DNA from: Pelagomonas calceolata
Taxonomy: Eukaryota; Sar; Pelagophyceae; Pelagomonadales; Pelagomonadaceae
DNA length: 64,000 nucleotides
Assembly: GCA_918797485.1 (NCBI GenBank)
Contig: CAKKNE010000004.1
Span: 4,278,001 to 4,342,000, forward strand
Direction of reading: 5' to 3'
In this document: in pieces, positions 1-64,000 of the stretch
How positions within the stretch are numbered: the first letter of the stretch is position 1
How the letters are laid out: each line of letters opens with the position of its first letter
The notes under the pieces: generated by a model
The model's database searches: none
Told to the model about the DNA's origin: nothing
What the model saw: the letters and a program-made list of their open reading frames with translations, nothing else
Program-made: the position numbers and the translations under genes

Positions 1-5
1 CACAG

Positions 6-119
6 GGCGACGGCCCCGACCACTACCGCCCGGACAGCCCCGACGACTTCCGCGTCGCGTGCCGCGACGTGTCCATGCCGCTCCCGGAAGAACGCTCGTC
101 GGAGGCGTCGTCCTCTTGA
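6..119 (+). CDS. 3'-terminal exon of an unknown gene (partial)
   Basis: An open frame runs from base 6 to a TGA at 117-119 and encodes about 37 residues, acidic and Ser-rich at the end (GDGPDHYRPDSPDDF near the start, ERSSEASSS at the end). The five bases before it are CACAG, which is a 3' splice acceptor and is also the exact 3' end of the introner elements found elsewhere in this window. The piece therefore looks like the last exon of a + strand gene whose intron, possibly an introner, is cut by the window edge. No domain is recognisable. Support is the codon-like composition, the acceptor, and convergence with the following - strand gene. Confidence 0.4.
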   Translation, partial: GDGPDHYRPDSPDDFRVACRDVSMPLPEERSSEASSS

Positions 120-272
120 CAACGTTGTGATATCCCGCCGCATCGACAGCGTGGAGGTTGTGCATATCCTACCGCCACGCCGTCGCTGCGACACTGCCCC
201 CGCCCATCCGGAAAATCTTATCGTCGGCGTTATCACTAGCTGTTGCACAGTAAAAAATGTTAACTAACCTAA

Positions 273-2105
273 TCACGGCGGAGGCCGGAACTTCGCCTTT
301 TTGGCAGCAGCGTCGGCGGCCTTGATGCGCGCCACCGTGTCCTTCGGGTACCTTTCCTTGCGCGCTTTGATGTCCGTCACGTTCACGACGGCCGGGAGCG
401 GCCAGACCGGCGGCCGGTCCTTCGGCAGCGGCTCCTCGAGGTTGTTCCACGCCAGCGCCCACTCGCGGTTGTAGAAGGGCGCATGAATTGTATCCGACGT
501 GTCGTGCAAGACCCGATGCTTCGCCTTCGGCGCCGCGTAGAAGAACGTGTCGGCGGCATGGCCGTAGTAGGCCCTTAAGCGTGCCACATAACCGGAGAAG
601 GTGCTAAAGAAGGTCCCCGTGAACAGCCGACACGGCTTCGCCGAGGCCACGACCTGCTCGACCATGCCCAGCGCGTTCGGGTCGTATAGATCGGACACTT
701 CCTCCTGAAAATCGCGCAGATAGTAAATCTTCGCGAAGGCTTCCTCGAGCGGCGCGAACCAAGTTTTATCTTTTTCATCGGTCAAAACAAACAGCACCTC
801 GTCCTTGTCATAGCCGAAACTCAGTAAGGCATCACGCCACTCTTCGCACGATATCCTCACGGAGACGAACTGCAATTCACCTCTCCTTATATGCGCCGCC
901 TGGTACGTTTCACCGTGACGCGTTAACGCGTCGACCACCCTCCCGGCCGCGCAGAACACTTCATCCTTGTATTTGAGTCTATCGCGCCCGAAGCGCTTGT
1001 AGTAGAGGTCCGTGACACCATCGTCGAACAACAGAAACGTATACCAGTGCGTGAACATCCTATACCCATGGGACGCGTTCGTCGTCATGTGGACCCACGG
1101 CGCGCCCGCGAAGCGTTGATCGACATAGCGCACGCGTCGCGTGTGCGTACAGAATTTATCCGCGGTCAAATGCCGGTATTTGTTGTGAGTAGAGCAGGGC
1201 CCGAAGGCGACGCATTCCTTTAATGGTGCCCAGCGCGGCTCGACGTCCGCATGCCTACGCATCCACTCGCGCAGCTGCCGCCGCGCTATGACACCACCGT
1301 TCGTCGCGCGCTCCGCGAGGCCCTTCAGGTGCCGCCTCGTATTATCATTTTTTATCGTTTCGTTGAGGAATTGAGAGATGGAAATGACCTCGAGCGCGCC
1401 TCGTAAGGCGTCGAAGTCCAGGAACGCGTCGACGCCGTGGTGGGCCCGCGTGTTGCCGGCATGTGTGACTTTCAAGAGATACAAGCGCTGGGGCGGGGGC
1501 ATCACGAGAACTCGACCCGTCGCGTGCGCCAAGACGGCCAACGTCTCAAAGGCCATGCGGATGTTGTTCCAGCCGCCCGCGTCCGGTTCAAAGGTTAAAT
1601 ATTTGCGCTTCGGGCCATAACCAGCGTACGGCGACGCGTGCGTCTCGCCGCGCGACCAGTAGCGCATCCTCTCGATTATGGAAGAGCAGGATTCGCGCGG
1701 CGGCGCGGTCGCGACGCGCGGCGGCGGCGTCGCGAACATGCGCTTGCGCGCGCGGTGCTCGTCGGGCGCCGCTGGCGTCGCGAACGTATGGTGGTCAGGC
1801 GCATGGTCGCGCTTCTCGGGCGCCGCCGCCGGCGACGGCGGCGCCTTCATCCCGTCGAGGAGGTAGTGAGCTTCCCGTTCCACCGCGCCTTCGACCACAG
1901 CCCACTCCTTGCGCACTTCACCTTCTACCACGGCCCAGTCCTTGCGGACCTCGCCTTCGACCGCGGCCCAGTCCCGGCGCACCTCGTCCGCGATGCTGCG
2001 CTCGTGCAGCACGACGAGCGCGCCGAGCGCGACGGCCCAGACGAGGAGGAAGTACTTGGCTAATGCTGCGGCGCCGCCGCCGCTGTTCGGGCGGCGTCGT
2101 GCCAT
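273..2105 (-). CDS. GDP-fucose protein O-fucosyltransferase-like type II membrane protein
   Basis: 610 residues. A short basic N-terminus is followed by one membrane segment (about residues 15-34), as expected for a Golgi/ER type II glycosyltransferase. Residues 41-78 hold three and a half 11-residue repeats of the form EVRxDWAxVEG, probably a helical stem. A Pro/Ala-rich linker leads to the catalytic region. YLTFEPDAGGWNNIRMAFE (about 168) is the typical opening of the O-fucosyltransferase superfamily, and AAHIRRGELQF (about 400) matches its conserved H-x-RRG-x-x-Q nucleotide-binding motif. The likely role is transfer of a sugar from a GDP-sugar to secreted proteins; donor and acceptor cannot be read. 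The ATG at 2105 directly precedes the basic/membrane N-terminus. It is divergent from the next gene, with a palindromic motif between them. Confidence 0.75.
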   Translation of the reverse strand: MARRRPNSGGGAAALAKYFLLVWAVALGALVVLHERSIADEVRRDWAAVEGEVRKDWAVVEGEVRKEWAVVEGAVEREAHYLLDGMKAPPSPAAAPEKRDHAPDHHTFATPAAPDEHRARKRMFATPPPRVATAPPRESCSSIIERMRYWSRGETHASPYAGYGPKRKYLTFEPDAGGWNNIRMAFETLAVLAHATGRVLVMPPPQRLYLLKVTHAGNTRAHHGVDAFLDFDALRGALEVISISQFLNETIKNDNTRRHLKGLAERATNGGVIARRQLREWMRRHADVEPRWAPLKECVAFGPCSTHNKYRHLTADKFCTHTRRVRYVDQRFAGAPWVHMTTNASHGYRMFTHWYTFLLFDDGVTDLYYKRFGRDRLKYKDEVFCAAGRVVDALTRHGETYQAAHIRRGELQFVSVRISCEEWRDALLSFGYDKDEVLFVLTDEKDKTWFAPLEEAFAKIYYLRDFQEEVSDLYDPNALGMVEQVVASAKPCRLFTGTFFSTFSGYVARLRAYYGHAADTFFYAAPKAKHRVLHDTSDTIHAPFYNREWALAWNNLEEPLPKDRPPVWPLPAVVNVTDIKARKERYPKDTVARIKAADAAAKKAKFRPPP

Positions 2106-2301
2106 CCTGTTTTTATGAGTGCTGCGGCCGACGAGGGCTTAATTGGTGCTGCACAGCTTGTGGACCATTTTGATCTAGAGTCGCATTCGCTGCGGCAGCG
2201 ATGCTTGGGCGGCTATCTTAGCTTTACAAAAGCAGTAAGAATACGGCCTACACGCAATGATTGCGCACGTTATGCGTAAAATGGCAGCGACCCAAATTTT
2301 A

Positions 2302-2325
2302 GCTAGCGGCCTGTGACACACTAGC
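2302..2325. promoter_or_regulatory. CTAG palindrome motif, copy 1
   Basis: Reads GCTAGCGGCCTG then TGACACACTAGC. It lies in the 488-bp divergent gap, 197 bp from the fucosyltransferase-like ATG and 269 bp from the ATG at 2594. It is one of twelve copies of a motif whose outer arms GCTAG..CTAGC are inverted repeats. Nothing else was recognised in the gap 2106-2593. Confidence 0.6.
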
Positions 2326-2593
2326 AAGCACCTACTTTTTGGCCAATCGACGCAATTTAGCCCGCTTCCGCGCAATAGTGACGTAGGGGCTGTTCATAGA
2401 TCACGTTCGACATCCTGCATCCGCTCAGAGCGCTGTCGTAGCGAGAACCATCTCAGCAGAGCCACTCACAGCCTGCTGCTGTGCGCGTCGCCCGCGCTAG
2501 CGCCGCGAAGCGATCGGGCCCAGCCGAGCCGACCCCGTAGAGGTGACAAGATCAGCTGCTTTTGGCGCCTTACGCCATCGCCGCGATACAAAA

Positions 2594-3076
2594 ATGAATT
2601 TCGACGACACCGAGAGCGAGGACGACGAGCCACAGCAACCGCAGGAACCGGTCGCGCCGCCGGCGCCGGCCCCGGCGCCCGAGAGCGACCTCCCGTCGGC
2701 CGCGAGCATCCTCGACGCCGAGGCCACGCCGGCCTACGTCGTCACCCAGCCGAGCGTCAACGGCCTCGAGCCCATCCAGGAAACCGCAACGCCCGCGGTT
2801 GTCCCGACGCCGACGCCGATCCGCGACACCGGCGAAAAAGAGGCCGAGGAAGAGCGCATCATGAAGGCCCAGCACGAGGCCCTCAAGAAGCAGGGGCGGG
2901 CGCGCCAGCGAAAACGGGCGAGGGAAAAAGCCGAGCAGAACGAGGCCCGGCCGGCCTACGAGCGCCAGAGTATGCACGGCCAGAAGATCGCCATCTCCGT
3001 CGGGCCCTCGTCCTTACCGGACACGTGCCGGACGACGTGGTCGGCGATCCCGCACAAAAATACGAAGTGGAAGTAG
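2594..3076 (+). CDS. Unknown charged protein with Pro/Ala-rich N-terminus
   Basis: 160 residues from the ATG at 2594, chosen over upstream codons because it follows an A-rich CAAAA context shared with other starts in this window. Residues 1-15 are very acidic (NFDDTESEDDE), followed by a Pro/Ala-rich stretch. A strongly charged segment predicted to be helical follows (EAEEERIMKAQHEALKKQ, then RARQRKRAREKAEQNEA) and a short C-terminus ending NTKWK. The layout of an acidic tail plus a basic helix vaguely recalls clathrin light chains, but no diagnostic motif is present, so the function is unknown. It converges on the VHS-GAT gene with only 15 bp between the two stop codons. Confidence 0.6.
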   Translation: MNFDDTESEDDEPQQPQEPVAPPAPAPAPESDLPSAASILDAEATPAYVVTQPSVNGLEPIQETATPAVVPTPTPIRDTGEKEAEEERIMKAQHEALKKQGRARQRKRAREKAEQNEARPAYERQSMHGQKIAISVGPSSLPDTCRTTWSAIPHKNTKWK

Positions 3077-3091
3077 TAAGTGTGTGAAGTA

Positions 3092-4075
3092 TTAAACAGT
3101 GGGGTTCGTCGGCGGCGCCGACAGGTCGAGCAAGGAGCCCTCCGCCGCCGCCGCCGGCGCGGCCGCGGGCGGCGCCGAGAAGTCTAATAACGATCCCTCG
3201 GCTGCAGGAGGAGCAGGAGGCGGCGCCGACAGGTCCAGGAGCGTCTCCTCCTGCGCGGGCGGCGGCGGCGGTGTGGGCCGGTTCTCCGACGCCGCCTCGT
3301 CCGCCAACACCTGCTGCACGGCGTCGTTCACGGCCAGCAGGTGCGCCACCGTGTCCGCGTCGCCCAGACCGCCCGCCAGGCCCACCTCGACCAAATTCGC
3401 GAGGCGCGGCCGGCACGCCTCCAAAAAACCAACAACCTCCGACATGGCCTCGTCCTCCTTAATACCAGGGCTGTTCGGCAGCATCGACTCGAGCAGGGAC
3501 ACGTGCTCCGCGACGACGTCCAAATCCGTGCGCACCTTCACGATCGCGTTGGCTCGTTCCAGCGACCCGTCCGCGAGCGCGGCCGCGAGGGCCGCGTCGC
3601 TCTCCGACGCATTTGACAAAGATGGCTGGGTTCGAGGCGGCGTGAACACGGGCACGTCCGTCGGCTCGCCGAACGGTAAACCCTTGACCCTTAACGCGTA
3701 GTACGTCTCGCAGAACTTCGGGTAGCTCTGCTTCAGGGGCTCGAAGGCGACGCCCCACTGCTGAATTAACTCCAAAGCTCGCGTCTGGACTTCGATATTT
3801 GACGGCGCCTGCGCGAGGTTCGCGACGGACGGTAGGGCCCCCTGCTCGACGGCGCCGTGGCAGTTCTCGCAGTTCTTGACGCACATTTCTAGTAGAGTTA
3901 GTGATAGTAACTGCACGTGCGCGTCGTTCTTGCCCAGTCTACGTTTGACCGCCGCCACCAACGCCAAGGCTTCGCTCGGGTCTCTTCCTACGCAGTCGCA
4001 GATCTCGAGGTTCTTGCCGTAGTCGACGGCGCCCTGGCGGATCTCGGCCGTCGCGGCCTCGACGAGCTGGTCCAT
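3092..4075 (-). CDS. VHS-GAT domain trafficking adaptor (TOM1/TOL-like)
   Basis: 327 residues. Residues 1 to about 135 form a VHS superhelix: MDQLVEAATAEI, then LALVAAVKRRLGKNDAHVQL and LLEMCVKNCENCHGAV, which match the conserved VHS helices. A GAT-like helical region follows (about 165-260). The C-terminus is Pro/Ala-rich and carries three clathrin-box-like motifs, ETLLDLS, GSLLDFS and GSLLDLS. There is no GAE ear, so it resembles TOM1/TOM1L and plant TOL proteins rather than GGAs. The expected role is binding ubiquitinated cargo and clathrin on endosomes. Three near-identical LLDL/LLDF boxes within about 60 residues are a neat repeat. The ATG at 4075 opens the VHS domain directly. Confidence 0.85.
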   Translation of the reverse strand: MDQLVEAATAEIRQGAVDYGKNLEICDCVGRDPSEALALVAAVKRRLGKNDAHVQLLSLTLLEMCVKNCENCHGAVEQGALPSVANLAQAPSNIEVQTRALELIQQWGVAFEPLKQSYPKFCETYYALRVKGLPFGEPTDVPVFTPPRTQPSLSNASESDAALAAALADGSLERANAIVKVRTDLDVVAEHVSLLESMLPNSPGIKEDEAMSEVVGFLEACRPRLANLVEVGLAGGLGDADTVAHLLAVNDAVQQVLADEAASENRPTPPPPPAQEETLLDLSAPPPAPPAAEGSLLDFSAPPAAAPAAAAEGSLLDLSAPPTNPTV

Positions 4076-4324
4076 CCTTCTGTTTTCTTTTAAAACGGCT
4101 CGCGCGGCGCTACGCGCTGTTGATCCGGGGCGACGCCAAATTGTTATTGCTCCCTCGAGGCCTCACAGCTGCTGGGTCACTTGGCTGGGAGAGAAGCGCA
4201 GCGGGTTCCGATCGTTGCGCTTTGCCTTCTCTGCAAAAATTATTGCTCTGAGAGTATGCTGTCGTAAGGCCAAGCGGTAGAACCGCGTAGACTCCTCCCT
4301 GCCGGAGAAGATGCCAGGGGCTTT

Positions 4325-4347
4325 CTAGTGTCTTACATGCCGCTAGC
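4325..4347. promoter_or_regulatory. CTAG palindrome motif, copy 2
   Basis: Reads CTAGTGTCTTAC then ATGCCGCTAGC, 250 bp upstream of the VHS-GAT start. The left arm lacks the leading G. It lies in the gap 4076-4849, which otherwise contains only the short orphan open frame at 4457-4632. Confidence 0.6.
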
Positions 4348-4456
4348 ACCAGACACCGCGACGCCCGACGGGCATCAGTGCCGTCCTTGAGGAGCTGCTC
4401 ATTGCTGGTAGAATACTGTTTCGACCAGACCGCGCTGCGCCAGCACAATTTCGTGA

Positions 4457-4632
4457 CGCGGTCCCTCGCCGGTAGGCGCGCGCACCTCAGCCACAGAAAG
4501 CCGACCGACGACCACCATCTACGAAGCCGACGCCGGCCGGCGAGATATCCCCATCACGGTCACGATCAATTACCGCGCGGCACAGCCTTCCGCTCAGTCG
4601 CCACTTTATTATGAGGAACGAGACGTCTGCTA
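4457..4632 (+). other. Possible orphan coding exon
   Basis: A stretch without a usable ATG reads protein-like up to a TAA at 4630-4632. Its latter half translates as TTIYEADAGRRDIPITV followed by TINYRAAQPSAQSPLYYEE. This balance of hydrophobic and polar residues is unlike the Arg/Ala-rich shadow frames of this GC-rich DNA. AG acceptors are available just upstream (ctcag, 4486-4490). It could be the last exon of an unrecognised + strand gene or a gene remnant. No upstream exon could be assigned. Confidence 0.25.
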
Positions 4633-4849
4633 AGCCAGACGAGGATCGCGCACGCGCAGTGGCAATCATTACTGACGACGAGTGGTGCGCGGGCGCGGGA
4701 GCCGACGCGTCGATGGCCCGAAACCGGAAGCCCAGCCTTCGAAGACGACGGGAGGGCGTCCGCGGCGAAACCCCGCCCCGAAGCTATTATATTCATGACA
4801 TCCGTTAAACACGCGCCTAGAGGCGACGCGTCGTCGACGGAACCGGGCC

Positions 4850-6455
4850 CTACAAGCTCCAGTCGATGGGCTCGAGCTCGAGCTCTTTGAGGGCTTCGTT
4901 CGTCTTGGAGAAGATGTTCGACGCGGCGAACGGCTCGGCCCCCGAGAACCGCGCTCTAGACGACGGGTGCGACGCCGTGATGACGCGGTGGACCGTCGTG
5001 TCGATGTCTTTGATGTGTTCCTGAGCGTTCTTGCCCAACGCGATGAACACGATGCCCTGCTTCTTCCTGAATTTGCAGATGATCTTGATGACTTCCTTCG
5101 TGAAGATGCGCCACATGTCGCTGTGCGACCCTGGATCGCCACTCTTCACCGTAAGTGCACTATTCAACAACAAGACGCCGCGCTGCGCCCATTTGGTAAG
5201 GTCACCGTTCGTCATGTGGATGTCAACGTTCGCCTCGGGCACGTCCGTCTCCAACAACGCGAACATGTTGCCCAGTGAAGGTGGGATGCTCGTGTGCTCG
5301 TCGACGGAGAAGGCGAGGCCGTTCGCTTCGCCTTTATTGTAATAAGGGTCCTGGCCAATCATGATCGCTCTAGCCTGTTCTAATGGCGTCTCTTGAAAGC
5401 ACCTGAAAATGAAGCGCTTCTCCGGGAAGATGCTGTATTGTGTGGTGCGCTGCCTATACATGTCGTCGATGGTATAGAAGACATCCCTCTGGTCGCGGAT
5501 CACAGGTTTGAGCTTATTGCGCCAGCCGTCCGGGAGCATTTCCAGGTAAAAATGGAGGCAGGACTCCTGGGGCTTTGCTTTGTGTTTCGAGCGAATGTCT
5601 TCATCATAAGCGTGGCTCGGCTCCGCGCACGCGAGGTCGGACACGTCTCTGCAGAAGAACTGATCCTTAGCTTTAAGTGTCGCTTCCAGATTGCGTGGAA
5701 CAAAGCGCCACGCGCCGCACTCGTCGCATAACATCTGCTCGGCGCAGCCCTCAACTCGCCCGTGGTACACGCTGCCGGACATGGATGGCGCGAGGCCCGG
5801 CGGCAGGAGAGGCACTGGTATAGGTGTATCGTTGGAGACGACGCCGAGAACAGAGAGGAGGTTCAAACAATATTTGCAGGCGGGGTGGTACAAAGACGCG
5901 GCGATGTAAGTATCGACGCCACGTAGCAAGACCTTGATAATGGCCTGTTCTTCGCCGTGGTGCGCGGCATGACGCGCTGCCTCAGCCCAGGCGCGCTGCG
6001 CAACATGGGGGCCGCCTGCGCGAAGACGACTTACCGAAAAGTACGGATGAGGACGCGGGACGCTTACGTCGTTTCACGGAGACCTTGGCCCATTTGGTGA
6101 TGACTGCTGCGACCTTCTTCAAGTCGCCGAATTCATTGAGCTCGTCTCTGCCAATGCATCCGGCGGCGCCGAAGATGGTGTCAAAACTATCGAGCACTCG
6201 GCCTTCGTCGAGCTGCACCTCGCGCACCCGCCCGCAGCCGTACGATTCGGACGTCACCTCACACATGCTGCACGCATTCGCGCCCGCCAGCAGAAAAGCA
6301 TAAGCCACGTTCGCCATCACGCCCTTGTCCGCGGACGTCGCGGAGACGACCGAGGTGTCGACGCCGTCCAAGGGCTTCGCGAACGCAATGGTCTCATTCT
6401 CAGCCTTCAGATTGAGCTTCGGCAAATTCATGGTGTTGATGATTTTAGTACGCAT
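4850..6455 (-). CDS. CW zinc finger-uracil-DNA glycosylase (family 1 UNG) fusion
   Basis: Proposed join of exon 6455-6068 and exon 6015-4850 around a 52-bp GTAAGC..GCAG intron, giving 517 residues. The second exon has no ATG before 5782 but is open and in frame right up to the acceptor, so one spliced gene is preferred. An alternative is a shorter UNG starting at 5782. The C-terminal half is a family 1 UNG that removes uracil from DNA: GQDPYYNKGEANGLAFSV (about 349; the usual GQDPYH has Tyr for His), LLLNSALTV, ASHPSSRARFSGAEPF (about 480) and FSKTNEALKELELEPIDW. Upstream, at about 223-265, CDECGAWRFVP and the following Cys residues form a CW-type zinc finger, a module known to read methylated histone H3K4. 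The N-terminal 130 residues are unrecognised. Confidence 0.7.
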
Positions 6456-6733
6456 TCTGTTTTGGGATTTGGCGAGGGGCGCGCCGCCTGCGAGGTGAAA
6501 AGTATTGTACGTCCGTCACTGGTTGAGTTCTACACTACGTAGCACGGTACAGCTCCACAGCGCGCTTCGAGAGTTCATCGGCCGGCCTATCTGTGTCTGT
6601 CGAGATTTCTTCAAGCGCAGCAACGAGCATACCTCTGTCGTGGAACGTGTTGCCGTCGTCTAGAGGTTCGAGGCGCAAAGTACTACCTTCGGTGGGCACC
6701 GGCCGCAGCGCTTCCTTGGACCGTCGATCGGTG

Positions 6734-6922: not shown

Positions 6923-8479
6923 TTAGTGCGCTGCCGCGGACGCGCACTTCTCGCAGATAGGTATAAGCAAGCCTTCGACGAACACGCGCTGTGGCCCTTT
7001 GCAGTCGCGGTCGAGGCAGCTCGGGCACACCCACTCGTCAAACAAGCTGTTTTCCGGGTCTCGGAAGTCGAGGCGGCTTATAATGGCTTTCGGAAGCTTT
7101 GCCACATCTGAGTCTGCTATCTGTTTCAGCATGAAGTGCTGCTCCACCACGTTCCGGAACTGGGGATGATCAATCTCGGTCTGAGGCTCCACCGCTCCTT
7201 CCAAATCGCTGCCCTCGCCCTGCTTTTTTAGTTCAGAAGCTTTGGCTGCTCTTGACGCCCGAGCTATATCTTCGTCGAGGGATAAGCGTGCGAGCTCTTC
7301 GTTGTTGGCGGCCTCGGCGTCCACGAGGGCCGCGGCCGCAACGGCGTCTTCCTGGCTCAAAGCGGAATGATTGGCGCGGAGCTCGGCGAGTTTGAGCTCG
7401 CGCTCGTCGATGGCTATTTGTAGGTCGCGGTACATCTCGGACGTCACCACGCGCTGCTTGTTTCGCCGTGCCTCAAAATTTGCAGTCGCGGAGCCACAGG
7501 CTTCGCAGAGCGTCGACTGGCCATCTGGACCGTCTTTTATCCCACCGGCTTCGTCATGGTTGCGGCCGCAGTTTGTGCAGAACCACTCATCGAGCGGCGG
7601 TAATGGAGGTCGCCCAGATCTAAAACGTCCGCAGCACGATCTACAGGCCGTCCTCATGCCGTACGGTCCATCGTAGCGCCAGCCGCCCAAAGCCACGGCG
7701 CACGACAAGCAGTTCTCGAGGCGTGGCAAATTTTTGAGCTTCGGTCGTGACGCACGTCGCCGGTCAAAACATCTCCTACATATTGGCCCTTCGTCGGTTC
7801 TAAGAGCGGGACGCGGGGTTCCACACTCGGACTCGGGTTGGTCGCAGTCCGCACACGTCCAGTTTCTCGGCGGCGGCGGAGCAGGTGGCGGTCTCGTCAA
7901 TTTCAATAATAGAACACTCCTGGAACAGTTTCGGCCCTTGCATGTGACCGGAATCCCCCGCAGCTTGCACTCGGCCTTTAGCTTCTCCAGATAGTTCTCA
8001 TCATTGGGATCGAGCGACGCGGGGTCGAACGGTTCCACCACCGTCGCGACCACGGGTGCGTCGGCGACGTCTGGGGCCGCTTCCGGCGCCGCTTGCGGCT
8101 CGGCGGCCGCGCCGACGGTGCTAGATAAAGGGTCCGCCGCGGATGGCGCCGGCGCCGGCGCTGTCGATTCGGCCTGCATCGGCGGCGCGACCGGCGCGTT
8201 CGGGGGCGTCGGCGGCACCGCGGGTTCGAAGCGCGTCGGGTCGGCGGCTACGGAGGAGGGCTGCATCTCGGGCTGCTGGGGCGCGGTCGGTTCGGCCTCC
8301 ATCTCGGTCTGCCGCCTAAGCGCGATTTCGCGCGCGGCAGCGAGGGTCGCCATGACTTGTTGCCCGTGGGCTCTTTCCCGATCGTCGATGTTGACAATGT
8401 TGTCGGCCTGGCGCATTCCTTGCAAGGCTGCATAGAATAAACCGTCGAATGCAGCATCGTTACGAGGGTCGCTGGCCAT
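6923..8479 (-). CDS. SAP-like plus four GATA-like Cys4 zinc fingers
   Basis: 518 residues from the ATG at 8479; an in-frame TGA upstream rules out an earlier start. The N-terminal 150 residues are Ala/Pro-rich. About residues 160-195 (LEKLKAECKLRGIPVTCKG then SVLLLKL) resemble a SAP DNA-binding helix pair. Four Cys4 units follow: CADCDQPESECG..CRRC (about 206), CLSCAV..CRSC (about 255), CTNCGRNHDEAGG..LCEACG (about 302) and CPSCLDRDC..CEKC (about 487). The third is closest to a GATA finger. A charged helical region separates fingers three and four. It is probably a nuclear DNA-associated protein; the target is unknown. Its 5' leader is interrupted by the 304-bp introner at 8543-8846. Confidence 0.7.
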   Translation of the reverse strand: MASDPRNDAAFDGLFYAALQGMRQADNIVNIDDRERAHGQQVMATLAAAREIALRRQTEMEAEPTAPQQPEMQPSSVAADPTRFEPAVPPTPPNAPVAPPMQAESTAPAPAPSAADPLSSTVGAAAEPQAAPEAAPDVADAPVVATVVEPFDPASLDPNDENYLEKLKAECKLRGIPVTCKGRNCSRSVLLLKLTRPPPAPPPPRNWTCADCDQPESECGTPRPALRTDEGPICRRCFDRRRASRPKLKNLPRLENCLSCAVALGGWRYDGPYGMRTACRSCCGRFRSGRPPLPPLDEWFCTNCGRNHDEAGGIKDGPDGQSTLCEACGSATANFEARRNKQRVVTSEMYRDLQIAIDERELKLAELRANHSALSQEDAVAAAALVDAEAANNEELARLSLDEDIARASRAAKASELKKQGEGSDLEGAVEPQTEIDHPQFRNVVEQHFMLKQIADSDVAKLPKAIISRLDFRDPENSLFDEWVCPSCLDRDCKGPQRVFVEGLLIPICEKCASAAAH

Positions 8480-12188: not shown

Positions 12189-12210
12189 CTAGCGGCCGTA
12201 AGACACTAGC
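12189..12210. promoter_or_regulatory. CTAG palindrome motif, copy 3
   Basis: Reads CTAGCGGCCGTAAG then ACACTAGC. It lies between the calmodulin-like ATG (282 bp away) and the ATG at 12404 (194 bp away). No gene is seen in the rest of the divergent gap 11908-12403. Confidence 0.6.
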
Positions 12211-17760: not shown

Positions 17761-17784
17761 GCTAGTGTGTCTAAAAACGCTAGC
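17761..17784. promoter_or_regulatory. CTAG palindrome motif, copy 4
   Basis: Reads GCTAGTGTGTCT then AAAAACGCTAGC, 139 bp from the fibrillin ATG and 242 bp from the BAR-SH3 ATG. The rest of the divergent gap 17623-18025 shows no gene. Confidence 0.6.
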
Positions 17785-20029: not shown

Positions 20030-20054
20030 GCTAGTGTCTTTACAGGCCGCTAGC
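20030..20054. promoter_or_regulatory. CTAG palindrome motif, copy 5
   Basis: Reads GCTAGTGTCTTTACAG then GCCGCTAGC. It starts 52 bp upstream of the DOT1-like ATG and is 341 bp from the FkbM-like ATG. It is nearly identical to copy 6 at 24809. No gene is seen in the rest of 19979-20394. Confidence 0.65.
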
Positions 20055-24808: not shown

Positions 24809-24833
24809 GCTAGTGTCTTTACAGGCCGCTAGC
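24809..24833. promoter_or_regulatory. CTAG palindrome motif, copy 6
   Basis: Reads GCTAGTGTCTTTACAG then GCCGCTAGC, 174 bp upstream of the sulfotransferase ATG. It is identical through the core to copy 5, 4.8 kb away. Confidence 0.65.
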
Positions 24834-24930: not shown

Positions 24931-26007
24931 TTAGACAATGCGGGGCACCGGCGGCTGCAGCCTCGCCCGGGCGGCCAGCGCCCGGAGCTCCGGGTCGTCC
25001 GACGCTTCGAGCTTCGCCAGCCACGCACGCGCCATGCCCTTGCGACCGGACCGCGTCCGGTCCCAGGCGCCGTCGAACGAACTTCGAGACACGAAGTTCT
25101 GCGTCACGGCGACCGTGTCGTCCAAGTTGAGAACCGCGTGCCACCACCCTGCCGGCACATATAATGTATCCCCGGGCCGCTGCACGACCTCGATGCGCCG
25201 CGCGTGGGGGTACGTTTGTCTGATCCTTGGCAGGATGTCCACGAAGTAGTTCACGGCCTCGTCGTCCTCGCCCGCCTTGACTAAGTGCGACCCCGTCGCG
25301 ACTTTCTTGGACGTGCCGGGCTCGAAGAGGACCCAGCGCTTCCGCCCCGCGAGGAGCGTGTTCCAGGCCGCCGTGCCGAGCGGATCGATGTGGACGCACG
25401 TGCCGCTCCGCTGCGGTCCCAGGAGAAACCACTGGTACGGCGGCCTTCTGTTTTCACCCACGAGCTCGAAGAGGTCGTCCCTCGCGCAGAATTTCGGTAT
25501 GCTGTAGAAATCCCGGCCGTGCTTCTCGCAGAAGGCCTGGTCGAAGACGTACAGCGGACTATCGTCCCGGTTGAACCGCGCATAGCTCACAAAGTCTCTC
25601 AGTGAAACGCGGACCGTCTTCCCGTCGTCGTCCTCCCCGACCTTCATCCGGAATACGTCGAGGTCGCCGCGGTTCGTAGGTCGTCCGTTTATTGATGTCC
25701 AGTTCCGGAGCGCCCAGCCTTCTCGCTCGGGCACGTTCGTCACTAAACAAGGCTCGCTTCGACGCTCGAAGCGCGTCGCGAAGTCGGCGGGCGCGATGCC
25801 CGCGTCGACGCGCGTTATTGGTGAAGCGCACTTGGGGACCGCGTCAAGTCTTTCAACCTCGGTGCGCCGCCGCGTCGCGAAGCCGTCGCGGGTCCAGTCG
25901 GCGAGTTTCGGGCGGTGCTTCTTCTTCGCTTGCTGTAGGGTTTCTTGCCACGTCGCGTGTCTTTTTTCGGTCGCGGCCTGGGCTATGACGCTGCGCGGCG
26001 ACGACAT
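24931..26007 (-). CDS. JmjC-domain oxygenase, JMJD6-like
   Basis: 358 residues. The JmjC 2-oxoglutarate/Fe(II) core is clear: YQWFLLGPQRSGTCVHIDPL (about 197, with the His-x-Asp metal pair), then GTAAWNTLLAGRKRWVLFEP, and RPGDTLYVPAGWWHAVLNLD (about 285, the distal His). VTQNFVSRSSF follows. This run closely matches JMJD6, which hydroxylates lysines in splicing factors and has been reported as an arginine demethylase. The N-terminus (KRHATWQETLQQAKKKHRPK) is basic and helical, fitting a nuclear protein. Length is slightly shorter than animal JMJD6, lacking its Ser-rich tail. The ATG at 26007 begins a plausible N-terminus. Confidence 0.85.
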   Translation of the reverse strand: MSSPRSVIAQAATEKRHATWQETLQQAKKKHRPKLADWTRDGFATRRRTEVERLDAVPKCASPITRVDAGIAPADFATRFERRSEPCLVTNVPEREGWALRNWTSINGRPTNRGDLDVFRMKVGEDDDGKTVRVSLRDFVSYARFNRDDSPLYVFDQAFCEKHGRDFYSIPKFCARDDLFELVGENRRPPYQWFLLGPQRSGTCVHIDPLGTAAWNTLLAGRKRWVLFEPGTSKKVATGSHLVKAGEDDEAVNYFVDILPRIRQTYPHARRIEVVQRPGDTLYVPAGWWHAVLNLDDTVAVTQNFVSRSSFDGAWDRTRSGRKGMARAWLAKLEASDDPELRALAARARLQPPVPRIV

Positions 26008-26258: not shown

Positions 26259-26282
26259 GCTAGCGTCCTGTAAGGCACTAGC
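26259..26282. promoter_or_regulatory. CTAG palindrome motif, copy 7
   Basis: Reads GCTAGCGTCCTG then TAAGGCACTAGC, 252 bp upstream of the JMJD6-like ATG. No gene is seen in the rest of 26008-26410. Confidence 0.6.
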
Positions 26283-38884: not shown

Positions 38885-38907
38885 GCTAGTGTCTTACAGG
38901 ACGCTAG
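38885..38907. promoter_or_regulatory. CTAG palindrome motif, copy 8
   Basis: Reads GCTAGTGTCTTAC then AGGACGCTAG, 146 bp from the small mitochondrial gene's ATG and 200 bp from the PH-DnaJ-PDZ ATG. Nothing else was recognised in 38740-39106. Confidence 0.65.
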
Positions 38908-45165: not shown

Positions 45166-45188
45166 GCTAGCGTCTAGTAAGACACTAG
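45166..45188. promoter_or_regulatory. CTAG palindrome motif, copy 9
   Basis: Reads GCTAGCGTCTAG then TAAGACACTAG, 175 bp from the CLP1 ATG and 203 bp from the ATG at 45391. No gene is seen in the rest of 44992-45390. Confidence 0.65.
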
Positions 45189-55904: not shown

Positions 55905-55926
55905 GCTAGCGTAGTAAGACACTAGC
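55905..55926. promoter_or_regulatory. CTAG palindrome motif, copy 10
   Basis: Reads GCTAGCGTAGT then AAGACACTAGC, 91 bp upstream of the second fibrillin ATG. It lies in a same-strand gap, between that gene's start and the stop of the P4H-methyltransferase gene. Confidence 0.6.
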
Positions 55927-56007: not shown

Positions 56008-58050
56008 CTAACTCGCCCCCACACCAGAAGAAGATGAACCCCACCGCGCCCGCACGACGCGCACGCGATGCGTCGCCGCCGCATCGACGTCCGGCGTGAC
56101 GGTCAGCGCGAGCACGGAGTCCTCGACGACAAAGCCGCGTTTCCGCAGCAGCTCCCCGCACAGCTTCAAGGGCGCCCGCTTCTCGTCCGAGCACAGGACG
56201 GCGGTGCCGCCGGGCGCAAGACGGAGCGGGATACACGCAGCCAGCGCCTCGGCGTCCGCGGCCCGGTACGCGATCTCCGCGCCGAGCACGAGGTCCGCCG
56301 GTGCCGGCGGCTCCGACGGCTCCGCGGACGCGTCCAGGCCGTCGAAAGTCCCCCCACCCGCGAAGTTGTACAAACAAACCTCGACGCCGTCGAGCTTCCG
56401 GAGGACGGGCAGGAGCGCCGGCGCGCCGTCGGTCAACGTGACACGCCCGCCCAGGGCGGCGGCTGCGCGGCCCGGCAGCGCACACGCGCCGCAGCCGAGC
56501 TCGACGACGCGAGCGCGCGTCAGTGTTTCTCGCCCCACGACGAATAGCGTCAGCGCCACGGCGCCGGGCCAGAGCGCGTGGCCCGTCCCGGAATTCGACG
56601 CCGTAGCCGCGAGCTCGTCGACGACCACGGTGATATCACCCCCAAACACCAGGCGTTTCTGCGCGCCGTCACGCGTAAAAGTCACTTCGCACTCACATGA
56701 AGCGACCTCCTCGCCCCCGTCCGATAGAGTGTAGCGCGCGCGCCGCCACGAGAGCGTGCCTGACGGACCATGCGCTCCACCAGCGGCGGCGTAGGTCAGC
56801 AGGCGCGGAGGCGCGCCGTCGTCACTGCTCTCTTCGCCAAAGACGTCGAAGGCGCCCCCGTCGTCGTCCGTCCGCAGCGCCGCCGCGACGAGGTCCACCA
56901 ATACAGCATCCGGCGCCGGGCCGGTGGCAGAGACCACCTCCCCATCATAGGCCACGCGCGCGTCGCACCAGTCGCCGCGCAGGTCCGTCGCGAGGCGCGC
57001 GGCGACGGGCGTCGAGGACGCGTCGTCCAGTAGGTCGCGGCGCCTTTGATCTTGCGCCATGAGCGACGTCTCGGCCGCGGACCGCAGCAGCGCGTCCCAG
57101 GACGCGTAGGGGTCGCCGCCGCCGCCTCCGGCCTCGAAGAGCGGCCCGGGATCACTTGTCGCGTGAAACAGGGCCGTCAGCGCAAAACGGCACCCAGAAG
57201 ATACCTTCTCGACGGCGTGCAGGTTCGTCGCGTCGCCGCGGAAGCAGATGACCGTCCCCGCGGACGGCTCGAGGTAGCGGTCCACGCCGTCGCCGTCGTA
57301 GAAGACGAAGCGGCCGCCCGTGAAATCGCTCCCATGATCCGACAGGTAGAGCAGCGTCGTGTGCTCGTAGGTCTCGACGTTGTACTCGTCAACGTGCACG
57401 TTCCAGTAGCAGCGCGGCTTCGACTCGAGGGCCCGCCGCCGCGACGACGCGCCCGGCGGCTGGAGCCGCGCGAGGAAGGCGCCGGACAGCGCCAGCCGCC
57501 GCTCGTCGACGCCCGCCGACTCGGCGGCGAGCCGCCGCAGCTCGACGACGCAGCGGCGGATCGTGGCGATGCTCTCGTCGTCCAGACGACCTTGAAGGGC
57601 TTCCGGCGCGGCGCAGCCGAGCGTCGTGCTGCCGTTGTTGCGGAACGCCCCGACCATGCCCCGCGCGGCGGCTCGCGCAAGAGCTTGGGCCTGGCTGCGG
57701 GCTAAGATGGGGCAGTCGCGCAGGACCCGACGGTACGACTCGCCGCGCACGTCGACGAGGGGCTCTTCGCCCCTCGTCGGCGGCCGTTTCGCGTACGCGG
57801 CCTCCGCCCGCGCCTCGTAGAAGGGCCTTTCGCTGGTAGGCGGTGGTGGCGGCGGCGGCGGCAGCGGTGCGGGCGCGGCAGCGCCGGCGAGCGTTTGGGC
57901 GGCGCGGTGCCGTTCTTGCAACGTCGCGACGCGCACGAATCGTTCGATGTAGCCGGCGTCCGAGGCATCCGTGCCGTCTTGCACCGCTTGGAGTGCGGCC
58001 TCTTGCCGTGCTGCATGCTCGAACGCTTTGCAACGATCCGTGGCCGACAT
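56008..58050 (-). CDS. Prolyl-4-hydroxylase-type oxygenase fused to a METTL16-family (lysine) methyltransferase fold
   Basis: 680 residues from the first ATG (58050); the frame is open further upstream without an ATG. About 60-330 hold a 2-oxoglutarate/Fe(II) dioxygenase: PRCYWNVHVDEYNVETYEHT with His-x-Asp (about 218), LLYLSDHGSDFTGGRFVFYD, then SAGTVICFRGDATNLHAVEK (distal His, about 273) and GCRFALTALF. About 500-670 hold a class I SAM domain: RARVVELGCGACALPGRAAA (motif I), GRVTLTDGAPALLPVLRKL, APADLVLGAEIAYRA and GGTAVLCSDEKRAPLKLCGE, the order seen in Methyltransf_16 protein-lysine methyltransferases. In between is a beta-rich segment. Hydroxylation and methylation on one chain suggests paired modification of a protein; the substrate is unknown. 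Confidence 0.8.
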   Translation of the reverse strand: MSATDRCKAFEHAARQEAALQAVQDGTDASDAGYIERFVRVATLQERHRAAQTLAGAAAPAPLPPPPPPPPTSERPFYEARAEAAYAKRPPTRGEEPLVDVRGESYRRVLRDCPILARSQAQALARAAARGMVGAFRNNGSTTLGCAAPEALQGRLDDESIATIRRCVVELRRLAAESAGVDERRLALSGAFLARLQPPGASSRRRALESKPRCYWNVHVDEYNVETYEHTTLLYLSDHGSDFTGGRFVFYDGDGVDRYLEPSAGTVICFRGDATNLHAVEKVSSGCRFALTALFHATSDPGPLFEAGGGGGDPYASWDALLRSAAETSLMAQDQRRRDLLDDASSTPVAARLATDLRGDWCDARVAYDGEVVSATGPAPDAVLVDLVAAALRTDDDGGAFDVFGEESSDDGAPPRLLTYAAAGGAHGPSGTLSWRRARYTLSDGGEEVASCECEVTFTRDGAQKRLVFGGDITVVVDELAATASNSGTGHALWPGAVALTLFVVGRETLTRARVVELGCGACALPGRAAAALGGRVTLTDGAPALLPVLRKLDGVEVCLYNFAGGGTFDGLDASAEPSEPPAPADLVLGAEIAYRAADAEALAACIPLRLAPGGTAVLCSDEKRAPLKLCGELLRKRGFVVEDSVLALTVTPDVDAAATHRVRVVRARWGSSSSGVGAS

Positions 58051-58214
58051 CTGCGCTGCGCGGCTCTCACCTTTGCAGGCGTCTAGCGCTTGACCGTTGC
58101 CCGAGATTTTGATCCATAACGAATCTGCAATGATTCTGAAGTAATTGTGCTGCTTCGCAGCAAAAGCCAACCTCGTGCTTGCCGCTGCAAGCAAAAAAGA
58201 GCGCCGCACTTCGA

Positions 58215-58239
58215 GCTAGCGGTCTGTAAAGACACTAGC
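58215..58239. promoter_or_regulatory. CTAG palindrome motif, copy 11
   Basis: Reads GCTAGCGGTCTG then TAAAGACACTAGC, 165 bp upstream of the P4H-methyltransferase ATG. Confidence 0.65.
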
Positions 58240-59769
58240 AAGCACAAACTCGGAACGCAGCATGCAGCTGTTTGAGTATCGATCAGTTCGCTAATGGTCC
58301 AAAGAGATCAATTGGACACGTACTGGGGGGCGAAAAAGGAAATTTTTTAATTCGCGGCCGAGGGCGCCCCTCGGTCTATGGCGGGCGCGCCGGTTTAATC
58401 CTGTCAATCCCTGCCCAAGAGGTGTCCCTGGGGTTGCCTAGGGTCGGTACTCTACACGCGCAAGCGCCTACACCGCATGCGCCGCCGCTTCAATCATTTT
58501 TGGTCGATTTCTCTCAGCAGGCCACAGAGGAATAGCAACTTTTATGCCTTTGTTGCTTCCAGGGCTCTCCGAGAGCACTAGACCGCTGCATCGATGGCGT
58601 AAGCGGTGCAGGCGCTTACCCACTACCAGACCTACCCCGAGAGACCTCCAGGAGCCGATCTACATCCGAAAAAAGTGCGCAATTTGGACCCGATGGCGCC
58701 TCGTTCCCGTCAAAAACGTCAATTACCCGAGGGCCCCCAGTAGTCGCCGTAGCGGTCTCGTTGAACCCTATACTACCCCAGCGATAGTCAATTACGAGTA
58801 TATGACATCTACATTATAAGAAGGGTACTTTTGGCTGCCCACACTCGGGACGTGAACATCTTGATCTGGACCTCGCGCAAGTCAATTTATCATGGAACAA
58901 ATGTTCGCGTCATGGTCCATGGTGATGGTACACGGGCTGATGGTCGCAGGTCCGGGTTTAAAGCCCATCTAATTGAGATCGTGGGGTCGCGAGACCGAAG
59001 ATCCGCGCGGAGTAAACGGGACCTTTCGTCCAATGTAGTTCACGCCCAGGCCGGTTATCTGGCCCATCCCGTAACCGAAGCGCCTCAAACGCGAATTTAT
59101 TTTATAAACCACCGGTCTGGGGCCTTTCCGGTGCTCCGTCTCCGCACCGTCGCCCGCGGAGAACGGGCAAGTCGGTCGATTGTGAATAGAACAACGGCGT
59201 TATGGTCCATCTGGATGGTGCCGTCGCTGATACTCGCAGGTTTGGTTTCTGGGCTGGTTTTCATATAAACACGCGGTACCGAAGTCGTCGAATCCCGCGG
59301 CTCTAATGGAAGATCTAAAATAGCTCAGTGGACGCTGATGCGGTTTGGATGGACTCTACCACTAACAAACGGAAGGAAACGAACATAAACTCGGGAGTTG
59401 TCTAGTAGAACTCTTCTCCCGCCCTCCGAGCGCGGGCCGTCGGCTCTGGTTCCGTCGAACTTGTATGAAAACTGGGCTGGAGTTGATATAATGTACCATT
59501 TGGACGATAGATCGCGGCATCAATCGCTGGTCTACTTTGGCAAGCCGGAAGACTCATCCGCGAATGTCGCGGGCGGTGCCTTCCGGGAGGCGCGAGGGTA
59601 TGTTCCCGGGCCGCTACTCTGAAATATTTGGTCTCGGCGAAGGACTAGGATGTATTCTGAATTTTGGCTATTCTTTTGACGCTATCGAAGCGCATCTTTG
59701 GATTTGCTAGTAAGTCGATTACGCTAGCTATCGACGAGTCATAAAGAGAGCAACTTACCCCACAAGCAC
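58240..59769. repeat. Gene-poor, less GC-rich block with a diverged 290-bp tandem duplication
   Basis: About 1.5 kb lacks any convincing gene and is visibly richer in A/T than its surroundings. Bases 58877-58960 and 59167-59250 align without gaps at an offset of 290. Both begin GCAAGTC, share ATGGTCCAT and CTGAT..TCGCAGGT, and the similarity resumes at ACCGAAG (58994 and 59278) after a small indel. Open frames across the block (for example 58831-59268) are not protein-like. It may be a decayed transposable element or LTR remnant, or a non-coding RNA locus. No introner end or CTAG motif is inside it. Confidence 0.5.
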
Positions 59770-61041
59770 CTAAGGCGCCGCCACGACGCCGACCTCCTTC
59801 GGCGGGGTCGCCCCCAGCGCGTTGAAGCCCGACGGCTCCTGGAACTCCAGGAGGTCGCACTGCGCCTTCTGCTGCATGAGCGCGTCGGCCAAGACCAGTG
59901 CGACCATGGACTCGACCATCGGCGCCGCGCGCGGCAGCACGCACGGGTCGTGGCGGCCCTTGCCCCTTAATTCGGTCTCCTGGCCGTCGCGCGTCACCGT
60001 GTTCTGGAGCTGGCCGATCGTCGACGTCGGCTTGAACGCGACGCGGACCCAGATCGTCTCGCCATTGGAAATGCCGCCCTGGACGCCGCCGCTGCGGTTC
60101 GACCGCGTCCGCGTCCGGCCGTTGGCGTCGACGTAGAACTCGTCGTTGTGGTCTTTGCCAGCTAGTAAAGTGCCGCCGAAGCCCGAACCAATTTCAAAAC
60201 CTTTCGAGGCGGGCAGCGACATGCAGGCCTTGGCGAGCTCCGCCTCGAGCTTGTCGAAGACCGGCGCGCCTAACCCAGCAGGTACGTTGTAGGCCACGCA
60301 CTCGACGACGCCGCCGATGGAGTTGCCCCCCCTCCGGATCTGGTCGATGCGCTCGATCATCTTCTCCGCCGTCTCCGCGTGCGGGCAGCGCACCATGGAC
60401 GCCTCGACGTCCTCGAGCGTGACGGAGTCGCGGTCGAAGTCCTCGGGCATGCGCACGTCTTGCACAGCCTGGACATAAGCTAAAACTTCGACGCCCGAGT
60501 AGAGCTTGAGCACCTCCCGCGCGACGGCGCCGCCGGCCACTCGCCCGATGGTCTCTCGTGCCGAGGACCGGCCGCCGCCCGCGACGGCACGAACACCGTA
60601 CTTCGCATCATAAGTCGCGTCCGCGTGCGACGGTCGATAGGCCTTGGCCATCGTGTCGTAGTCGTTCGACTTTTGATCTTTATTTCTCACCAACATGGCG
60701 ATGGGCGTGCCCAGGGTCACTCCACTTTCTTTGTCGACGCCGCTCAAAATCTCGACGGTGTCGGACTCGTTCCTGGGCGTCGTCAGTCGCGACTGGCCGG
60801 GCCTTCTCCTATTCAACTCGAACTGCACGGGCTCCTCGGTCAGCGGCACGCGCGGCGGGCAGCCGTCCACCACCACGCCGACGCCGCCGCCGTGCGACTC
60901 GCCCCACGTCGAGATGCGGAAGCACCGTCCAAAGGAATTGCCCATGCCCATCCTTATTTGGGCCCTCTGGCGCCCCGGCGCGACCAGTCCCGATGCGCTC
61001 ATGGCCAGCGCGAGCAGCGCCAGCCTGGTTGACGATGCCAT
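59770..61041 (-). CDS. Chorismate synthase, plastid-targeted
   Basis: 423 residues. The N-terminus ([20 protein letters not shown] then PGRQRAQ) is a signal-like plastid-targeting leader. The enzyme starts at [20 protein letters not shown], the standard chorismate synthase signature, and continues with [58 protein letters not shown] then [54 protein letters not shown] and [20 protein letters not shown]. It removes phosphate from EPSP to make chorismate, the last shikimate-pathway step, in the plastid using reduced FMN. Length and motifs are complete. Confidence 0.95.
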
Positions 61042-61288
61042 GGCTTTGCGTTGCTCTGCTGTTAAGGGTGACGAGCACTGGCGAGGCGTTGATAGCGGTC
61101 AGCAATCAATCGGAAGAGCACGCTGCTTCACTCCTTTGAGCGATGTCACGGCCGCCAGCAGTGTCTCGCTCTACTGCTACCTTGGCTGGGCTTCAGCCTG
61201 CGTCTGCAAAATTGATTGCTCCTTGGCTCGTGCATTCGTCGTGACGCGTCTGGAGGACTCGGCAACCCTCCCGGCAGCTTTTCGTCTT

Positions 61289-61313
61289 GCTAGTGTGTCT
61301 TACAGTCGCTAGC
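61289..61313. promoter_or_regulatory. CTAG palindrome motif, copy 12
   Basis: Reads GCTAGTGTGTCTTAC then AGTCGCTAGC, 248 bp from the chorismate synthase ATG and 151 bp from the ATG at 61464. The same divergent gap (61042-61463) holds CTTGGCTGGG and CTGCAAAATTGATTGCTC, both near-repeated at about 4180-4248. No gene is seen there. Confidence 0.65.
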
Positions 61314-61463
61314 TAAAAGCATTGGTTTGAGTTTTTGGCTTTGCACGCGCATCTAGCGCACGACTGGTGCGCCTGCTGTTGCACGCATAAGACACGTTTT
61401 TTGGATTCGTGCTGGAAGCTGCGGCTTCCTGGGCTGCAGGGCTAGGTGTGGCGAGGACACAGC

Positions 61464-63860
61464 ATGGCAGGCATTATCTCCCATGCCGCTGCGGCGAAAG
61501 CTGTCGAGATGGAGGCTGGAAAAGGAGGGGCGAGCAGAGACGTCCAAGCAAGCACTGCAGCGGAAAAGAAACAACACGTCTGCACACACTGCGGCGCCCA
61601 GCACGCCTCGCGCTCCGCTCTCTTCCGCCATTTAAGGGCCCAGTGCGACCCGACGCTCAACAAGGAGAATGTGGCGAAGCTCGCCGTGGTCGTCGCCTAC
61701 GCCGGCGACGCGCAGCTCGGCGCCGACGCGAGAAATGGCGGCCCGGCGGCGACGACGCAGCTAGTCGTGAAAGCTGTTGGGAACGCGTGCGCAGGCGCGG
61801 CTGGGGGCGGCGCGGTCGTCCAGTCGACGCACGCCGCTGTCAGCACGGAGAAGCACGCCGGCGCGCGCGCGAATATTGTGCTTGTGGCGCTGCGCAACAT
61901 CCAAGCCGGCGCGCGGCTCACCGCCACGACGCTCGACGAGCGCCTGCCCGACGGCCTGCGCGTGCTCGCGGCTAGGTTCCTCACAAACAGCGCGGCGGAC
62001 CAGGCGCTCGCGGGGCGGCTGACGAAGCGCATCCGCCGCTGCGCGCACGTGATTGCGGTGCCCTACGCCGCCGTCGTTGTAGACGAGGACGAGCGCGACG
62101 ATGGCCGGTCCGTATTTGTGGTGGCGACGCGGCCGGGCGGGCGCGACCCGGCCGTGGACGAGGCCTGGATCCGCGACGTAGCACGAATGGCGGACGCGCC
62201 GCCGCCGGACGCGGTGGAGGGCGTCTGCGGCGGCGACGCCTTCGCGAAGCTCTCGTACGGCGACGCGGAGCTTGCGAAGAATGCGGTTTCAAAGCTCGAC
62301 GGCCTCGCGCGAGGCGACGTCGTTCTCCAGGTGATGCCGTGGCGCGAGGCCCGGGCCAAGCTCGACGCGCACAAGCGCCTCAAGGACGCACTCGCCGCCG
62401 CGAGCCGCGCGGTCTTCAGCGGCGCGGCGTCCGTGCTGCGGCCCGCGTCGCTCGCGCGCGACGTCCGCACGGTCGGCGGCGACTGGCGCGACGACTGGCT
62501 GCTCGTCCGCGTCCGCGGTTTTGCGCAGTGCCCTAATCAAATTTCCGCCCATGGGCAGTACGGCTGCGTCGTCGTCGAGAAATGACTCACTGGTTGATTT
62601 GGCACAGGCGGCGCGGGCGACACGGGCAAGGGCGGCCCGCCGCGGGGCGGCACGCGGACGGCGCGCCTCTGCCTCGGCGCGGCCGTGGCGGTCTGCCGCG
62701 GCGCCGAGGGCGCGGCCTGGCTCGCGACGCGCGGCGCCGATGATACCACCGGGCCGGCCGCGCCGGCGCGCGCGCTCTACCTCGAGGGCTTCGCGCTCTA
62801 CCTCGCGAAGAGCGACGCGCGCTGCGCCGACGTTGATGAAAATGCGCCGGCGGAGGCGCGGCGGCGGGCGCGCGCCCTCGTCGTGGCCGCCGCGACGAAC
62901 GACGCCGCGCGGGACGCCTGGCGCCGAGTCATTCGCGATATCGATGGCGGCGCCACGCGCAACGCTGACGACGCGGCGTTGCGCGCCGCGGCGGCGCGGG
63001 GCGACGGCGAGGAAGTGGCCGCGCTGCTGGAGGCAGGAAGGGCGCGCGTCGACGCGGCCGACGAGTACGGTCGCACGGCGCTGTTCCTCGCGGCGGCCGC
63101 GGGGCAGCGCGTCGACCGGTTGCTCGCGGCCGGCGCGGACCCCACGCGTCAGGCGCACGGCGGCTGGAAGCCCAGCCACTTCATACCCCGAGAGCCACTT
63201 CCGCTGCTCGGCCCGACGCCGCCCGCGTGGCGGCTGATGATTGCGCGGGACCCGCCGGCGCCGACCGCGACGACGCGACCGCTGCGCGGCCTCGCCCACC
63301 CCGGCGCCGGCAGCGTGATCGTCGACGGCGCAGCGACGGCCGACGAGGTCGCCGCGTTCCTGGAGCTGGCGCGGGGGTTGCCCGTCGCGCCGGCGGAGAA
63401 GGCCGCGTGCGCGGACCGGAGCTATTTTTATGATGCCGACGGCGCGTTCGGGCGGCGCTTTGCGGGCGTCGCCGCGGCGGCGTGGGGCGTTTCCGTCACT
63501 CGTATTAGAGTGAACAAATGTTACCGCGTGCTGACTTATGCGCGGGCGGGCGGGTGTCTTCCCGCGCACGTGGACTTGCACCGCGATTTAGGTGATGGCG
63601 GCCCGCCGACGACGCACACCTTCCTTCTTTACCTCAGCGACGATCCCGAGGGCGGATCAACGTCGCTGCTGAGTGCGCTTCCCGGCGACGACGCGCTCGC
63701 GCTGTCGGGAGGCCTCGTCGACGGCGCGCGGACGACGCTCTACGCGGTGCATCCCAAAGCCGGCCGCTTATTTCTGATGCCGAACGCGTGTCCCCACGAG
63801 GCGGCGGGTGTGGTGCGGGCGCCGAAGGTGTTGATTCGGGGCGAATTGCGGCTTCGCTAG
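61464..63860 (+). CDS. Zinc finger / PUS1-like pseudouridine synthase fold / ankyrin / 2OG-Fe(II) oxygenase fusion
   Basis: Exons 61464-62517 and 62608-63860 give 768 residues. A C2HC finger (C40, C43, H56, C61; HVCTHCGAQHASRSALFRHL) starts the protein. About 68-430 follow the TruA/PUS1 fold: AKLAVVVAYAGDAQ, ARANIVLVALRNIQ, LDERLPDGLRVLAARFLTNS, LTKRIRRCAHVIAVPYAAVV, DWLLVRVRG and PARALYLEGFALYLA. The catalytic RTDKGVSA stretch is replaced by STHAAVST (about 119), so the Asp nucleophile appears lost. Two ankyrin repeats follow (about 472-545; DEYGRTALFLAAAAGQRVDR). A 2OG oxygenase ends the chain: RVLTYARAGGCLPAHVDLHR with His-x-Asp (about 671), THTFLLYLSDDPEGGSTSLL and LMPNACPHEAAGVV (distal His, about 747). 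An introner splits the PUS1-like part. Confidence 0.75.
62526..62607 (+). mobile_element. Diverged introner element in the PUS1-like gene
   Basis: Begins CAGTGCCCTAATCAAATT and ends TGGTTGATTTGGCACAG, an inverted-repeat pair with different bases from the main type. It retains the internal GAGAAATGACTCACTGG. Target copies GTTTTGCG and GCGGCGCG are only half matched. The spliced intron 62518-62607 (90 bp) keeps the frame; if retained, the TGA at 62583-62585 ends translation. Confidence 0.75.
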
Positions 63861-63936
63861 TGTTGTACTTTTGTGTACCTTGGTACTTATTTCGTAGGGG
63901 GAAGGAGGGGAGTAGTCGTGGTAGCGTGGCCCAGGC

Positions 63937-64000
63937 TTAGTACGGGCAGGCCGGGTTGGCCAAAGCGCCCTTGAGATCTTCGCCCGAATTGTCGAACTTG
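63937..64000 (-). CDS. C-terminal fragment of an unknown gene (partial)
   Basis: On the - strand an open frame enters from beyond the window edge and ends at a TAA (63937-63939). It reads KFDNSGEDLKGALANPACPY, a natural-looking C-terminus. It converges with the preceding gene with 76 bp between stops. Too short to identify. Confidence 0.5.
   Translation of the reverse strand, partial: KFDNSGEDLKGALANPACPY

Follow-up and report, generated by a model that had tools for sequence, protein, structure and literature searches.

A long dyadic sequence element recurs thousands of times in the nuclear genome of the pelagophyte Pelagomonas calceolata and is probably a bidirectional promoter-organising site with the character of a core promoter element, a reading that draws on its confinement to promoters, its single occupancy and central position there, its occurrence in both orientations, two footprints in the adjoining DNA, and its conservation between diverged flanks. 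To our knowledge, the promoter architecture of pelagophytes is almost unknown, and no published description of the element was found in the open-access literature; the literature hits to its sequence string were biomedical papers and evidently unrelated.

The original prediction had placed twelve copies, upstream of genes and in both orientations, in a 64-kb window (the whole stretch of DNA that was analysed, 64,000 nucleotides), and all twelve were found where it put them. Eight are exact matches to GCTAGYG-N3-30-CRCTAGC, for which shuffled sequence leads one to expect 0.04, and in the remaining four the sole deviation is at the outermost G or C. All twelve are noncoding and lie 52-281 bp from the facing start codon, in seven divergent and five tandem gaps. 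Copies 5 and 6, described as nearly identical, share an identical 23-bp core set in unrelated flanks. RNA families and tRNAs were also looked for within the window and none was found. The copies are listed below, the strand being the one on which the CTAGTG arm comes first and the score that of a weight matrix.

Copy 1, 2303..2324, minus strand, divergent gap, score 38.7
Copy 2, 4325..4346, plus strand, tandem gap, score 38.2
Copy 3, 12189..12209, minus strand, divergent gap, score 36.3
Copy 4, 17762..17783, plus strand, divergent gap between a fibrillin gene and an SH3-domain gene, score 26.3
Copy 5, 20031..20053, plus strand, divergent gap, score 34.2
Copy 6, 24810..24832, plus strand, tandem gap, 23-bp core as in copy 5, score 35.2
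Copy 7, 26260..26281, minus strand, tandem gap, facing the JmjC-domain gene at 24931-26007 (minus strand), score 30.7
Copy 8, 38886..38907, plus strand, divergent gap, score 36.2
Copy 9, 45167..45188, minus strand, divergent gap with the CLP1 gene on the left, score 40.4
Copy 10, 55906..55925, minus strand, tandem gap, score 33.6
Copy 11, 58216..58238, minus strand, tandem gap, score 39.0
Copy 12, 61290..61312, plus strand, divergent gap with the chorismate synthase gene on the left, score 31.9

A whole-genome pattern search and a check of conservation in related pelagophytes had been proposed together with the prediction, and both were carried out. The genome searched comprised 32,445,274 bases in eight contigs, the published assembly of this species consisting of 32.4 Mb in six nuclear contigs in addition to the plastid and the mitochondrion (PMC9481584). 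The pattern CTAGYGN{8,12}CRCTAG gave 4,136 matches in the whole genome, against 56 for a reversed-pattern control. For statistics, a two-arm weight matrix was scanned over a 264-kb sample, made up of the window and 200 kb of unselected sequence, with a score above 12 as the cut-off for an element; this returned 46 elements versus one in the reversed sequence and, by extrapolation from these 264 kb, indicates about 5,600 elements per genome when mismatches are allowed. The score distribution in this sample is sharp, in that elements either come close to the consensus or are missing and weak sites are not in excess, which is unusual for an ordinary factor site and counts against the reading of the element as a promoter anchor. 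The CTAG tetramer is rare, as had been claimed, with 469 occurrences observed and 839 expected in the 264 kb. Viral contigs searched with the element gave no match.

Aligned copies yield the consensus gcTTG-CTAG-TG-TCTTACAGGMCG-CTAG-CT or, with its conserved flanks, about TTG-CTAGTGTCTTACAGGMCG-CTAGCT, in which the CTAG-to-CTAG length ranges from 17 to 24 bp and is most commonly 22; the flanks stay conserved for no more than about 5 bp beyond one end and about 3 bp beyond the other. The element had been described as a palindrome, and its arms are indeed almost palindromic, but the choice of T or C in them is not free, CTAGTG being paired with CTAGCG in 3,983 of the 4,136 copies (96%). T/T pairs number 120, some of them belonging to a separate repeat, CTAGTGGCGCAAAACTCACTAG, and the 33 C/C pairs are at background (30). 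The element is an asymmetric dyad without the free variation of a homodimer site. A transcription-factor dimer site, one of the identities first suggested, is compatible with the copies, but the fixed T/C asymmetry of the arms makes a simple homodimer unlikely. The information content, as a column sum over pattern-selected copies, exceeds 30 bits versus the roughly 13.5 needed to specify 5,600 sites among 65 million positions, and this excess points to multiple protein contacts or to very strong selection. Free half sites were looked for as well; the left half is seldom found by itself, with 42 hits scoring above 14 compared with 46 full elements. The repeat CTAGTGGCGCAAAACTCACTAG is a family of its own with two CTAGTG arms, an exact 22-mer found about ten times on contigs C1 and C2 (for example C1:1196660-1196681).

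Placement relative to genes was assessed with home-made gene models from a self-trained coding HMM without introns, and gene statistics were based on the 264 kb together with 30 loci, from one contig end. None of the 46 elements lies in coding DNA, though this accounts for 71% of the 264-kb sample, and the 36 strict copies comprise 19 in divergent gaps, 15 in tandem gaps, one in a convergent gap, one at a sequence end and none in coding sequence; at most one of 40 convergent gaps carries the element. An even spread of copies relative to genes was tested for and did not occur. A stretch of low GC content (49.7%) at C2:3500001-3520000 (loci L037 and L038), in keeping with low-GC regions that the genome paper mentions, holds one copy with no predicted genes flanking it. 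The distance to the facing start codon has a median of 212 bp (middle half 169-267 bp), and the element sits centrally in divergent gaps (P 5e-5 versus a uniform distribution). Both orientations occur, without bias in tandem promoters (12 versus 10). Among promoter gaps of at least 200 bp, 41 have no element, 37 have one and a single gap has two, whereas length-weighted random placement would give 7.5 gaps with two or more (P 0.0005). The element is found at 59 of 114 tested gene starts, that is, about half. In the other half of promoters no alternative motif was found, nor did any k-mer or gapped inverted repeat stand out in non-motif promoters and masked motif promoters. Likewise, no common functional theme emerged from Pfam searches, in which 15 of 20 genes with the motif and 18 of 20 without it had hits.

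Avoidance of upstream ATGs marks transcribed leaders. On the gene-facing sides of the element, sense ATGs number 16 against 20.4 expected at 10-30 bp from the element centre, 6 against 32.4 at 30-60 bp and 34 against 103 at 60-150 bp, alike in divergent and tandem promoters, whereas upstream of tandem copies their number is as expected (32 against 28.3). The change point falls 18-31 bp from the element centre, and, taking avoidance as the mark of a leader, we infer that transcription would start about 20-30 bp from this centre. The element itself is probably not transcribed, because the avoidance begins outside it. The motif explains the onset only modestly better than the start codon does (permutation P 0.037), the avoidance being partly tied to the latter.

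The second footprint is a CpG-poor patch 138-168 bp from the element, restricted to gene-facing sides, where CpG observed/expected is 0.70 and TpG+CpA 1.40. Re-pairing motif distances among start codons abolishes it (mean 1.13, sd 0.06; z -7.5 in the scan, matched by none of 800 permuted scans), which ties its phase to the element and not to the start codon. The patch is absent on sides that do not face a gene and in divergent gaps without the motif. Its CpG observed/expected is about 0.6 in the window and the C1 loci, whereas the random 200 kb (0.89) and tandem promoters (0.87) show a milder depletion. No second linker or nucleosome ladder was seen beyond it out to 700 bp, and an apparent CpG dip at 75-90 bp failed permutation. 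According to published work, pelagophytes use DNMT5 to methylate CpG in the linkers between nucleosomes (PMC9998398, PMC5728721), and a DNMT5-like open frame of 2,232 aa with DNA methylase and SNF2 domains is present at L051:578-7276, within C1:2767600-2774900. On the simplest reading, the patch would be what decay has left of a methylated first linker, and the +1 nucleosome would occupy the space from the element to this linker.

The conservation check rests on one related contig and one further copy. Within a 257-Gb prokaryote collection the long exact form of the element occurs in only two contigs, both from MAGs. NZGT01000013.1 (L052) shows collinearity to P. calceolata contig C6, with 83-94% identity, and is, judging from this likeness, evidently DNA of a related pelagophyte mis-binned as Spirochaeta; CAJWOS010000634.1 (L053) has 339 bases of 89% identity at its end. 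The element occurs in five of five promoters of the former (at 462, 2199, 4291, 5353 and 7636) and in one promoter of the latter, likewise in its P. calceolata orthologue, and all orthologous P. calceolata gaps carry it, two of the six comparisons (5353 and the CAJWOS010000634.1 copy) having been ascertained by the search pattern. At 2199 and 4291, 21 of 23 and 19 of 20 motif columns match P. calceolata, as against just 14 and 25 of 60 upstream columns. The P. calceolata counterpart of 462 is degenerate; the copy at 5353 is inverted relative to its orthologue, which fits an orientation-free function; and at 7636 the copy of the relative is shortened, with a full P. calceolata copy near the same place. 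Two similarity blocks of NZGT01000013.1 start at the element or a few bases away.

Both bacterial MAG records are thus contaminated by, or chimeric with, pelagophyte DNA, and records of this kind are a source of comparative sequence for the group. A dispersed repeat of about 157 bp is common to P. calceolata and its relative (NZGT01000013.1:299-455 and 2050-2172) and present in at least 40 places in P. calceolata (for example L043:7738-7892, L007:2197-2352 and L033:8296-8412), the 40 copies scored of 230 candidates being 81-88% identical. The majority of the copies that could be located follow a stop codon at 33-143 bp, in the sense direction, which makes the repeat look 3'-UTR-associated.

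Among known systems, the oomycete (Phytophthora) core promoter motifs INR, FPR and DPEP are 7-16 nt long, near the start codon and orientation-biased (PMC3599244). The P. calceolata element is likewise a stramenopile promoter element that lies near the apparent transcription start and is present in only some genes, in a group where TATA boxes have not been detected; it differs in its length of about 24-28 bp, its distance of about 200 bp to the start codon, its dyadic form, its unrelated sequence and its lack of orientation bias, the last of which sets it outside the oomycete directional set. General regulatory factor sites are exemplified by those of yeast Reb1, Abf1 and Rap1, with NRF1, ZNF143 and BANP as animal analogues at divergent promoters. 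Such sites are found at promoters genome-wide, are often dyadic, orientation-free and nucleosome-phasing, and the element shares their promoter confinement and free orientation; on the other hand, it has a far higher information content, a variable length of 17-24 bp, fixed T/C arms, at most one copy per promoter and an apparently fixed 20-30 bp to the start. This last distance resembles the canonical -30 position of the TATA box, the site of TBP, for which one gene was found in the genome, although the element differs from a TATA box in sequence and length and would act to both sides.

The most serious alternative, which we nevertheless consider unlikely, is a proximal regulatory site at which an ordinary or pioneer transcription factor with a large regulon opens chromatin while other signals set the starts. 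The presence of the element in only about half of promoters and its free orientation are what such a site would show, and the motif-phased CpG patch suits a nucleosome-positioning factor; yet the apparent starts lie just 20-30 bp away on both sides, copies are single and not clustered, and no functional class emerged from the 20 motif and 20 non-motif genes. A boundary or insulator between genes, or a mark of replication origins, without a direct role in transcription start, would account for the central position in divergent gaps, but there is very little chance of it given that tandem promoters carry the element about equally, convergent gaps hardly at all, and the footprints are restricted to sides facing a gene start.

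The tiny mobile palindrome originally suggested, which would insert into open promoter DNA, is similarly improbable. Its case lies in the thousands of near-identical copies with sharp present-or-absent scores and in the introners of pelagophytes, which are mobile and favour linkers. Against it, target-site duplication across 72 copies does not exceed chance (among 1,152 flank combinations the best gave 5 where 0.5 were expected, lay at an arbitrary offset and was not significant once corrected), homology stops about 5 bp beyond one end of the element and 3 bp beyond the other, and copies are absent from coding DNA, avoid sharing a gap, keep a fixed relation to the apparent start and first linker, and persist at orthologous promoters despite diverged flanks. 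Hardly credible at all is a hairpin acting at the RNA level in 5' leaders, the T/C asymmetry being a G-U pair on one strand: the arms are complementary, with the wobble falling on the strand where CTAGTG comes first, but the unbiased orientation relative to the gene, the T-C mismatch usual at the next inward pair of aligned copies and the onset of ATG avoidance outside the element all speak against it.

The bidirectional promoter-organising site remains the preferred reading, and two of the identities suggested at the outset, a core promoter and an element shared between divergent genes, are supported by single occupancy, both orientations, conservation in the relative, and the footprints of the putative start site and first linker, which are aligned to the element. 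Under this reading, a putative sequence-specific protein or complex would bind the asymmetric dyad of about 24-28 bp, TTGCTAGTGTCTTACAGGMCGCTAGCT; transcription would begin some 20-30 bp away from its centre, to one side or both depending on where genes start; and the first nucleosome would sit between the element and the linker at about 140-170 bp. The element would act as core promoter element and nucleosome-organising general regulatory factor site together, serving roughly half of all promoters. The binding of a protein, the place where transcription starts, the link between CpG patch and nucleosome, and any bearing on expression are what we infer from the DNA. It is possible, and proposed here only tentatively, that this is a lineage-specific core promoter system, in which a dedicated initiation factor would read the long asymmetric dyad, stand in for TATA/Inr-type signals at around half of the genes, fire symmetrically both ways, and set the starts and the first nucleosome in one docking event. 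In conclusion, a single site readable from sequence may predict the starts and the position of the first nucleosome for roughly half of the promoters of this organism and would explain how its compact divergent genes share promoters, while also offering a bait for a new general transcription factor and, through CpG decay, a way to read nucleosome phasing in genomes that methylate their linkers.
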